Shown here one piece after another: positions 57,454 through 63,377 of a stretch of 64,000 nt of DNA. How positions within the stretch are numbered: position 1 is the first letter of the stretch; each line of letters begins with the position of its first letter. Source of the stretch: Christensenellaceae bacterium Phil1 (GTDB lineage: Bacteria > Bacillota > Clostridia > Christensenellales > CAG-138); assembly GCA_001940855.1 (NCBI GenBank), contig MSGS01000047.1:1-64000 (forward strand), written 5' to 3'. The notes below the pieces were generated by a model that was not told where the DNA came from, made no database searches, and was given only the letters and a program-made list of their open reading frames with translations. The translations under genes and the position numbers were made by a program.

Positions 57454-57482
57454 ATACTATCAGAATATCACCTTTCCGTCAA
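57454..57482 (-). promoter_or_regulatory. Promoter of the response-regulator remnant
   Basis: Minus strand TTGACG (57477-57482), 17-base spacer, TAGTAT (57454-57459). It overlaps the end of the coiled-coil protein gene. Confidence 0.5.
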
Positions 57483-58216
57483 AGGGGGCAGATGCCGCTT
57501 TCGCAGCCGGTGTTGCCCCAGATGTAATTGTACAGCTCACACAGCCGGCCGTCGATCTCCGTAAGACGGTTGTAGTCGGCGATCAGCGAGTCCTTTTCCG
57601 CGTCGGTCAGGATGCTCAGGCTGCGGATGAAGGCGGCCTCATCGTAGTTGTCGAAGTCGTAGTCGTCCGGAAGATTGAAGTACGCTTCATCTACCTTGTC
57701 CCACAGGTCAGCGTGCTTTTCGCAGACGCGGTCATACTCCTGCTCCAGGGTGTCGATCTCATCCAGCACCTTGGGGTCGGCCTCTTCCAGTGCCTTCTCG
57801 TAGAGCGGCATATTGTCGCAGTCGGGCAGCTTCTCATACAGCGCCTCCATTTGGGCGTCCAGCTCGTTCAGCTCCTTGATATCCGCCAGAAGCGTTTCCT
57901 TCTCCGCTTCGGTCAGGGCGTTGGTGTCGCGGATAAACGCCGCTTCGTCAAAGTTTGTGAAGTCATAGTCGTCGGGCAGGGCGTTGCAGATTTCGTCCAG
58001 CTTTTCCCACAGCACCGCGTTTCTCTGGAAGATGGCGTCACTCTTTTCCTCAATCGCCTCGATCTGCTCCCAGACGGCGTCCTCATTCTCGGCGGCAATT
58101 TTAGTAACAGGCTCCATTGGCGCGGATGTGGCGGCAAAGGCGGAGGTTGCCGTGCCGATGGCCGATACCACCAACGCCAGTGCCAGTGCAAGGCCCCAAA
58201 TCGTTTTCTTTTTCAT
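57479..58216 (-). CDS. Secreted coiled-coil protein with two tandem repeats, lacking a native start region
   Basis: 245 residues. N-terminal signal peptide (A-F-A-A cleavage near 29), then two homologous helical repeats of about 90 residues, each with L-P-D-D-Y-D-F-x-N-x-D-E-A-A-F-I-R, and a short tail with Cys. Highly acidic. Upstream of the ATG there is no ribosome site: the sequence changes directly into an amylase-type gene fragment on the other strand. The 5' control region was therefore probably lost by recombination. Originally it may have preceded the response regulator whose remnant lies downstream. Function unknown. Confidence 0.7.
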   Translation of the reverse strand: MKKKTIWGLALALALVVSAIGTATSAFAATSAPMEPVTKIAAENEDAVWEQIEAIEEKSDAIFQRNAVLWEKLDEICNALPDDYDFTNFDEAAFIRDTNALTEAEKETLLADIKELNELDAQMEALYEKLPDCDNMPLYEKALEEADPKVLDEIDTLEQEYDRVCEKHADLWDKVDEAYFNLPDDYDFDNYDEAAFIRSLSILTDAEKDSLIADYNRLTEIDGRLCELYNYIWGNTGCESGICPL

Positions 58217-61133: not shown

Positions 61134-63173
61134 TTACGGCTCGATGATGTTGAAATACAGCTCAAAGGCGGCCATGCTGTCGCAAAGCGTTTGGAGCAGC
61201 GCCGCATCACCCTTTTCAACGGTGATGAGTCTTTCGATATTCTCCTGGTTTCCGCTCGTTATGGCAAGAATTCCGATCCGGGGCGTGGAGATCGTCAGGT
61301 CGGCGTCGTCCGAAAGTGCATCCTTATAGTACAGGAGTACGCCGTGGTGGATCTTGAGCAGATAATCGTCGCCGTCCGTCAGCTTGAGGTTTATGGTGAA
61401 GGAGCGGTCTTGGAGCTTTTCCGTATCCATGACGATACCCATGTAATCCAGCATGGTCTGTGCGTCCATGCCCTGCGCGGTGGTGCCGACGCCGAGCCGT
61501 GCCGCCTTCGGGTACTGCCCGGTGCCGTTTCGCAGCTCAAAGGCCGCCGCGAGGTAAGCGTTTCTCCATGCGCCGGACTCCGCCTGATACCCAAGCTGCT
61601 CCAGCGCGTCCGCGCACAGGCAGCGGGCATCCCGGTTTTCCGGGTCGGCAAATACCAGTGTGTTCGTGATCTGCGCGACCCACTGATACTCGCCCTTTTC
61701 ATAATCGGCGCGCGCCATCTCAAGCACCTTGCCGGTGTCACCGAGGTACGCCATGAGCTTTTTGGCATATTCGCTCGGCTCCAGCTCGTCCAGATGGATC
61801 GGGTTTGCGTCGTACCAGCCCATATATTTCTGATAGACCGCCTTGACATTGTGCTTCAGCGTGCCGTAATACTGCCGGGTATACCATACCCGTTCCAAGT
61901 CCTCCGGCAGCCGGATTATGGTGGCGATCTCTGTGGAGGTGTAGCCCTCGTTGATGTACAAAAGGGTCTGGTCGTGGATGAACTTATAGACCGCCGCCGT
62001 GTTGGTCAGATATTCGCTGACGGCTGCTTTGCCCCAATGGGGCCAGTTGTGCGCCTGAAAGACGACCTCGGCGTCGGGGAAGAGCGACTGCGCCTCGGTG
62101 ATATAACGCGCCCAGCCGTTCGCGTCCCTCACCTCGGCGCCGCGCAGCGTATAGAGATTGTGCATCGTCCCGCTGCAATTCTCCGCCATCCAGAGGGCCT
62201 TGCTGTCGGGGAAATAGGTGTTCATCTCGGCGGGGGATTCCGTCCCTGGCGTCTGCTGGAAGATCACCCGCACGCCGTCAATGGTCGTTTCAAAAACCGG
62301 CTCTGCGACCTCGTAGCTCGGCGCAATATAGCCGACCCCGTTCTGCACCGCAGTCAGTCCGATGCCAACCGAAAGGCGGCCCTGCTCGCCATAGGGCAGC
62401 ATGGAGCCATACTGCAAAAACGCCCGCCGCTTCATTGCTGTGCCGACAAAGACGTTTTCCTTCATCACTGCGTCCGCATAGCCCTTCGGCACGATGATCG
62501 CGGTCTTTCCGGAGGCGAGTTGCTCGTCAAGCGGCAGGCTGCGGTCCGCGACCTCCTCGGGCGCGATCAGTCCCTCGATACCGCCATAGTGGTCCACATG
62601 CGCATGGCTGACCACAACGGCGACGATCCGCCCATCGCCCATCTCGGAGCGGAAGAGCTTCAGCGCCTCCTCCGCGGTATATCGGCTACTGCCGCAGTCC
62701 ATGACGATCCAGCCGTGTTCGCTGCGGACGAAGGTGATATTGGAAATATCGTAGCCGCGCACCTGATAGATGCCGTCGGTGACCTCAAAAAGGCCGTAAA
62801 TGTGGTTTAGCTGCGTGTTCCGCCAAAGGCTGGGGTTTGCGGTGTCCGGCGCGTCCTTGTCGAGAAAGGCATAGGCGTCCTGTGTCCACACGGCTCTTCC
62901 TTCCTCGTCGCGGAGATCCAGCGTGTCCGGCGCGGCGAGAAAGCCCCGGTTCGCATTTTCAAGCTCTGTGGTATCCGCAAAGTCCAAAAGCGCGTATACC
63001 TGCTGTTTGGCGTCGATCGTGTACTGGGTCGCCGGCTTGCTCTCGGCATTCAGCACTGCGTCCGTGCCTGCGCTCACCGCAGGAGCGCTGCTTTTTTCCG
63101 GACTGCCGCAGGCAGTCAATGCGGCAGCCAGTATGCCCGTCACAAGGAGCATACAGATCCATTTCTTCTTCAT
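61134..63173 (-). CDS. Alkyl sulfatase of the SdsA/BDS1 (class III) type, lipoprotein
   Basis: 679 residues from the ATG at 63173 (GGGAGG upstream); the longer frame runs through the promoter region. Lipobox T-A-C (Cys near 21). Metallo-beta-lactamase domain with H-A-H-V-D-H-Y-G-G near 235, N-V-F-V-G-T-A-M-x-R-R-A near 290, P-A-E-M-N near 345 and A-E-N-C-S-G-T-M-H-N near 360. A dimerisation domain follows, then a C-terminal SCP2-like domain. It hydrolyses primary alkyl sulfates (SDS-like) in known members. Here it is predicted to be extracellular and membrane-anchored, which is rare to see in this type of organism. Likely cotranscribed with the DUF1254 gene. Confidence 0.93.
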   Translation of the reverse strand: MKKKWICMLLVTGILAAALTACGSPEKSSAPAVSAGTDAVLNAESKPATQYTIDAKQQVYALLDFADTTELENANRGFLAAPDTLDLRDEEGRAVWTQDAYAFLDKDAPDTANPSLWRNTQLNHIYGLFEVTDGIYQVRGYDISNITFVRSEHGWIVMDCGSSRYTAEEALKLFRSEMGDGRIVAVVVSHAHVDHYGGIEGLIAPEEVADRSLPLDEQLASGKTAIIVPKGYADAVMKENVFVGTAMKRRAFLQYGSMLPYGEQGRLSVGIGLTAVQNGVGYIAPSYEVAEPVFETTIDGVRVIFQQTPGTESPAEMNTYFPDSKALWMAENCSGTMHNLYTLRGAEVRDANGWARYITEAQSLFPDAEVVFQAHNWPHWGKAAVSEYLTNTAAVYKFIHDQTLLYINEGYTSTEIATIIRLPEDLERVWYTRQYYGTLKHNVKAVYQKYMGWYDANPIHLDELEPSEYAKKLMAYLGDTGKVLEMARADYEKGEYQWVAQITNTLVFADPENRDARCLCADALEQLGYQAESGAWRNAYLAAAFELRNGTGQYPKAARLGVGTTAQGMDAQTMLDYMGIVMDTEKLQDRSFTINLKLTDGDDYLLKIHHGVLLYYKDALSDDADLTISTPRIGILAITSGNQENIERLITVEKGDAALLQTLCDSMAAFELYFNIIEP

Positions 63174-63270
63174 AAGCGTTCCTCCCTCGCTTGGAAAGGC
63201 TCTCCAGCAGGACTTTCCCGCTGGGGATGAGTGCCGCACGATCGCAGCCCTTCCCGCTTCTATACTGCGC

Positions 63271-63299
63271 AGTTTAGCGTAACATCGCGCGAATTGCAA
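63271..63299 (-). promoter_or_regulatory. Promoter of the sulfatase operon
   Basis: Minus strand TTGCAA (63294-63299), 17-base spacer, TAAACT (63271-63276). The -35 lies inside the first 21-bp repeat. Confidence 0.55.
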
Positions 63300-63347
63300 T
63301 AGACCTTGCGCGAACAGCGTAAAACTTTGCGCGAATAGCGCGTTTTG
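63285..63347. repeat. Three 21-bp-phased direct repeats (probable LytTR operator)
   Basis: The core GCGCGAA occurs at 63287, 63308 and 63329, exactly 21 bases apart. Units 2 and 3 share TTGCGCGAA-x-AGCG. A weaker fourth unit may lie at 63265-63285. LytTR proteins bind pairs of 9-bp direct repeats about 12 bases apart, i.e. a 21-22-base period, and a LytTR gene starts 60 bases away. Confidence 0.75.
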
Positions 63348-63348
63348 C

Positions 63349-63377
63349 TTGCTTTGCATCAAAGACCGTGGTATTCT
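63349..63377 (+). promoter_or_regulatory. Promoter of the LytTR gene
   Basis: TTGCTT (63349-63354), 17-base spacer, TATTCT (63372-63377). The -35 begins two bases after the third 21-bp repeat, the usual position for an activator. Confidence 0.5.

Follow-up and report, generated by a model that had tools for sequence, protein, structure and literature searches.

A putative LytTR-type operator of 21-bp phased repeats between an alkyl sulfatase/DUF1254 operon and a LytTR-PAS regulator gene

The region between an alkyl sulfatase operon and a divergent LytTR-PAS regulator gene in Christensenellaceae bacterium Phil1 holds three direct repeats at steps of 21 bp. This array is most likely a real regulatory element, a LytTR operator for the surface DUF1254/alkyl-sulfatase operon. 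It is also regarded as likely that the protein encoded by the neighbouring LytTR-PAS gene binds it and that it acts on the sulfatase-DUF1254 operon. Feature coordinates are collected in Table 1 and refer to the window, that is, the whole 64,000-nucleotide stretch that was analysed.

Table 1. Positions of the predicted operator, the flanking promoters, and the genes of the module.
Feature	Position	Strand	Basis or remark
DUF1254/DUF1214 lipoprotein, 456 aa	59706-61076	-	Pfam; follows the sulfatase gene after 57 bp
Alkyl sulfatase lipoprotein, 679 aa, SdsA1-like	61134-63173	-	Pfam; SdsA1 2cfu E=5.7e-171; lipobox LTAC, HAHVDH motif
Putative -10, sulfatase operon, TAAACT	63271-63276	-	By eye; weak, under the scanner threshold
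Putative LytTR box 3, GCAATTCGC	63289-63297	-	Core TTCGCGCG at 63293-63286; covers part of the -35 and the beginning of the spacer
Putative -35, sulfatase operon, TTGCAA	63294-63299	-	17 bp from TAAACT; 15 bp after the TT of box 2, likewise in G490 and G634
Putative LytTR box 2 (proximal), GCTGTTCGC	63310-63318	-	Core TTCGCGCA at 63314-63307; end 10 bp before the sulfatase -35
Putative LytTR box 1 (distal), GCTATTCGC	63331-63339	-	RcoM-type core TTCGCGCA at 63335-63328; 21-bp phase with box 2
Putative LytTR-PAS promoter, TTGCTT-17-TATTCT	63349-63377	+	By eye; -35 at 63349-63354, -10 at 63372-63377; extended -10, TGG ahead of TATTCT
LytTR-PAS regulator, 256 aa	63407-64000, continuing to 64177 in the contig	+	Pfam LytTR E=8e-13; whole gene L002:7408-8178

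The heptamer GCGCGAA is found at 63287-63293, 63308-63314, and 63329-63335. The two exact steps of 21 bp agree with the initial annotation of this DNA, and no other exact 7-mer in the window occurs three times at regular intervals of 40 bp or less. Within the 233-bp intergenic region, lag 21 ranks first, with a best 13-bp self-match of 12/13 that was reached by none of 2000 dinucleotide shuffles. The possible fourth copy that had been suggested does not hold, as the candidate near 63267 is off phase and mismatching, and the letters in phase are CTAAACTGCGCAG. Further pairs of GCGCGAA are present in the genome on C26 and on C31. The pair on C26 lies within a GntR-type coding sequence at a spacing of 22, has CAATAGACCTTG in common with the array, and is taken as chance.

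The predicted binding core is better read on the minus strand as [AG]TTCG.GC, directed at the sulfatase promoter. Toward the sulfatase, the three copies read TTCGCGCA, TTCGCGCA, and TTCGCGCG, with zero, zero, and one mismatch to the RcoM1-type repeat TTCNNGCA, and they form the only triplet of this repeat with a period of 19-22 bp in the window when up to three mismatches in total are allowed. The first two boxes and the promoter are laid out on the minus strand as GCTATTCGC-12-GCTGTTCGC-10-TTGCAA-17-TAAACT. Across the family, a pattern search allowing three mismatches gave about as many matches as its backward control.

LytTR-family operators are defined as pairs or triplets of direct repeats of about 9 bp with 10-13 bp between them (PMC11347149, PMC6193735). 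With three 9-bp boxes and 12 bp between them, the array has the geometry and the consensus of published LytTR sites, which fits the type of site first supposed, although binding is a prediction. The operator of RcoM1, the CO sensor from Paraburkholderia xenovorans with a heme-PAS and a LytTR domain, consists of three TTCNNGCA direct repeats with 12-13 bp spacers (PMC11347149), and the array likewise contains three repeats of this type. Both regulators are one-component PAS/LytTR proteins. Nevertheless, RcoM1 has an N-terminal heme PAS followed by a C-terminal LytTR domain, whereas the window's regulator starts with LytTR and ends with PAS, which places it outside the domain order of the RcoM family. 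Its predicted target, an alkyl-sulfatase/DUF1254 operon, also differs, and the likeness covers the operator and the domain types, not heme or CO sensing.

In the case of the LytTR regulatory systems (LRS), the 9-bp boxes are separated by 12 bp and usually lie 10 bp ahead of the -35, their spacing being conserved and their letters poorly so (PMC6193735). The VirR boxes are placed on one face of the helix just upstream of the -35, where helical phasing matters (PMC2838878). The array resembles the sites of the LRS HdrRM and BrsRM and of VirR from Clostridium perfringens in having direct repeats just upstream of a -35, and differs from them in its box letters and target genes. Unlike the LRS, which have a membrane inhibitor partner, the window's regulator has no membrane-protein gene adjoining it among the open reading frames listed, the next gene being GNAT-like. 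The receiver domain and the kinase of the VirR system are likewise missing here.

The two promoters flanking the array are both putative, and neither reaches the promoter scanner's threshold of 9/12. The position just upstream of a -35 thus refers to a promoter that is itself predicted and weak. Boxes 1 and 2 lie upstream of the putative sulfatase -35 and box 3 overlaps it, as had been noticed at the outset. Transcription of the sulfatase operon would be expected to begin near 63264. On the other side, the repeats were thought to end two bases before the LytTR-PAS -35, a distance that has to be corrected to 13 bp from the nearest GCGCGAA core and 9 bp from the 9-bp box.

Footprinting among close relatives is impossible, because none of the 102 further genomes in the family has the sulfatase and the single additional genus member examined lacks LytTR-PAS. 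No relatives were found among viral contigs. Of 391 genomes sampled across the class, 9 have the sulfatase and 5 have LytTR-PAS. The linked genes recur in two Clostridia from other families. In G490, a LytTR-PAS gene whose product is 58% identical to the window's protein is followed on the same strand by DUF1254 and then by the sulfatase. In G634, LytTR-PAS directly precedes DUF1254, inside which the contig ends. A gene for a SulP-family sulfate permease (L075:10787-12409) lies directly upstream of the G490 run, which would suit a function in the release or uptake of sulfate.

Direct repeats at 21 bp are present at the operon promoter in both genomes. The intergenic region reads TCGATTCAC-12-TCGTTTTAT-10-TTGGCA-18-TATAAT in G490 and TCAATTCGT-12-TCGATTCGT-10-TTGATA-16-TATAAT in G634. 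Lag 21 ranks highest in each of the two regions (shuffle P 0.023-0.025 for G490 and <0.0005 for G634). The repeats have the same orientation as in the window, the proximal TT is 15 bp before the -35, and the 12-bp and 10-bp spacings around box 2 are identical. These two operon promoters score 11/12 independently in the scanner. Box 3 has no counterpart in either of them. The stretches of 44 bp ahead of the -35 resemble one another in the three promoters more closely than random placements do (18, 17, and 21 matches; P 0.014, 0.038, and 0.004).

The letters are shared to a lesser degree. The core [AG]TTCG is found in the window and in G634, and G490 has GATTCAC/TTTTA; the G634 copies fit TTCNNGCA poorly, with 2-3 mismatches. 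Position weight matrices (PWMs) from one species failed to recover the sites of another, which indicates that the letters are weakly shared and leaves spacing, position, orientation, and the short core to carry the argument.

No lag-21 repeat at P<0.05 was found in any of 21 control promoters. These comprised the upstream regions of 14 LytTR-PAS genes and of 5 sulfatase and 2 DUF1254 genes that have no LytTR-PAS gene next to them. The repeats therefore go with the combination of a DUF1254/sulfatase promoter beside a LytTR-PAS gene, of which there are only two independent recurrences. An origin by chance or by neutral local duplication, leaving the array without function, would be compatible with the weak promoter in the window and with the missing array at sulfatase promoters elsewhere. 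The shuffle tests, the match to a published consensus, and the recurrence in two other families at identical spacing and position make such an origin very improbable.

The same controls bear on which promoter is served. Since the 14 other LytTR-PAS upstream regions lack them, the repeats belong to the promoter of sulfatase/DUF1254 rather than to that of the regulator. It is rather unlikely that the site also or mainly serves the divergent LytTR-PAS promoter, in autoregulation or as a two-way switch, even though LytTR systems are often autoregulated and box 1 is close to the putative -35 of that gene: the boxes are directed away from it, and in G490 and G634 the site is located after the regulator gene. 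An effect of the array on the divergent regulator promoter is possible in this genome alone, where the genes are divergent. It would not be general, because the genes in the other two genomes lie in line.

The regulator itself has an N-terminal LytTR domain (PF04397) with 48.8 bits against a curated cut-off of 22.6, and the rest of the window's protein is named as PAS by neither Pfam nor NCBIfam. In the structural model of the ortholog L028 (mean pLDDT 86), a LytTR fold is followed by a PAS fold. Residues 3-105 of the model match 3d6w and AgrA with Z of 13-14 (best 14.1), and residues 128-238 match PAS structures with Z of about 13 (13.1). A GHCGC motif is kept in nearly all LytTR-PAS orthologs and is, speculatively, where a cofactor or the redox state could be sensed.

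In the DNA-contact motif (FhRhHRS), orthologs have FIKVHRG and the window's LytTR domain FIRTDRA, with an aspartate at the equivalent of AgrA H200. H200 and N201 of this motif have been implicated in AgrA binding (PMC4227749). With DRA in place of HRG, the protein may prefer different box letters, which read TTCGCGC in the window and TTCGTC in G634, or it may bind more weakly.

Other arrangements are found among the relatives. Two tandem LytTR domains precede the PAS domain in L034:5521-6735 (by Pfam) and L037:5437-6789 (the second by tblastn), so that a single chain could occupy two boxes. In G260:C20, L041 and L042 are tandem genes for diverged LytTR-PAS paralogs with 29-33% identity to the window's protein.

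The genome encodes five further LytTR domains, and the array could in principle be the operator of another protein, such as a dimeric helix-turn-helix repressor bound to an imperfect dyad in each repeat. The 63329 copy does contain a GCGC-N5-GCGC dyad (GCGCgaataGCGC), also listed as a stem. This reading is nonetheless quite unlikely: the dyad is missing from the 63287 copy, G490 and G634 share the phase of the direct repeats and not a dyad symmetry, and the array accompanies the linkage to LytTR-PAS.

If the LytTR-PAS protein is the one that binds, the array would probably serve for activation, with box 3 overlapping the -35. Two LytTR domains would be taken up by boxes 1 and 2, on one face of the DNA and two helical turns apart, and from 10 bp upstream of the -35 they would assist RNA polymerase in starting transcription of the sulfatase-DUF1254 operon, as suggested by the LRS and VirR. 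Occupancy of box 3 would then compete with the polymerase at the -35, which may give activation at low occupancy and repression at high occupancy. The C-terminal PAS domain would act as the sensor.

Alternatively, the three boxes may form a repressor operator that blocks the sulfatase promoter until the protein is released by a ligand of the PAS domain. The model for this would be CoxC from Afipia carboxidovorans at PcoxB, whose binding site of three TTNNNGCN repeats, spaced by 18-21 bp, overlaps the -35 (PMC11347149). The array has the same number of repeats, with box 3 over part of the -35. In contrast to CoxC, a MHYT-LytTR protein with a membrane sensor and a shown repressor, the window's regulator is soluble and has a PAS domain, and boxes 1 and 2 of its three predicted boxes are upstream of the -35. 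Moreover, G490 and G634 show only two boxes, both upstream of the -35 in the usual position of LytTR activators, and simple repression of this kind is considered rather unlikely.

The genes under the proposed control encode two lipoproteins. The sulfatase has the metallo-beta-lactamase (PF00753), Alkyl_sulf_dimr, and Alkyl_sulf_C (PF14863, PF14864) domains of SdsA-type enzymes, and matches SdsA1, the alkyl sulfatase from Pseudomonas aeruginosa, over its full length. Unlike SdsA1, it is a lipoprotein paired with a DUF1254/DUF1214 protein and a LytTR-PAS regulator; the Pseudomonas gene is linked to a LysR-type regulator. The pairing of DUF1254 with the sulfatase is also found in G490, G840, and G846. 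In the last of these, a single 1044-aa reading frame joins both (L084, G846:C186, 2-3136), and the pairing, including this fused gene, suggests a common substrate for both lipoproteins. The module is flanked by genes for two closely similar 245-aa secreted-type proteins about 12 kb apart (57479-58216 on the minus strand, and L002:13589-14326), and the stretch between them may be a duplicated or mobile segment.

The initial annotation had described this locus as a self-contained module for sensing and hydrolysing sulfate esters. The linkage of the genes is borne out by its recurrence, with 21-bp repeats, in other families. The sensing part fares less well, as no sulfatase was detected by contig search in 13 of 15 other genomes with LytTR-PAS, and most LytTR-PAS genes are not adjacent to a DUF1254/sulfatase operon. 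The sulfatase occurs in 3 of 19 genomes with LytTR-PAS (the genome studied here excluded) against 7 of 386, with P of about 0.005, or P=0.08 for the unbiased sample alone, and this co-occurrence is suggestive only.

The recurrence of spacing and position in two distantly related bacteria, with the same regulator beside the operon, suggests that LytTR-PAS, DUF1254, and the alkyl sulfatase form a small control module that has not been described before. A limited literature search found no reports joining LytTR with an alkyl sulfatase or DUF1254. The physiological role of the module would presumably be the scavenging or detoxification of alkyl sulfates at the cell surface. A further-reaching proposal, which is unlikely, sees LytTR-PAS as an undescribed one-component family of Clostridia with reversed domain order. 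In its sulfatase-linked branch, the PAS domain with GHCGC would sense a small molecule or the state of a cofactor, and the third box found here would make the system a band-pass or a two-way switch.

For the alkyl sulfatases of anaerobic Clostridia, these results assign a likely regulator and a predicted operator. For the LytTR-PAS family, to which the literature searched assigned no target, they provide a concrete candidate operator with controls. In three families it is the spacing that recurs, rather than the letters, in keeping with the idea that LytTR sites are read largely by their geometry. Recognition of this kind would make target prediction testable for other LytTR regulators.
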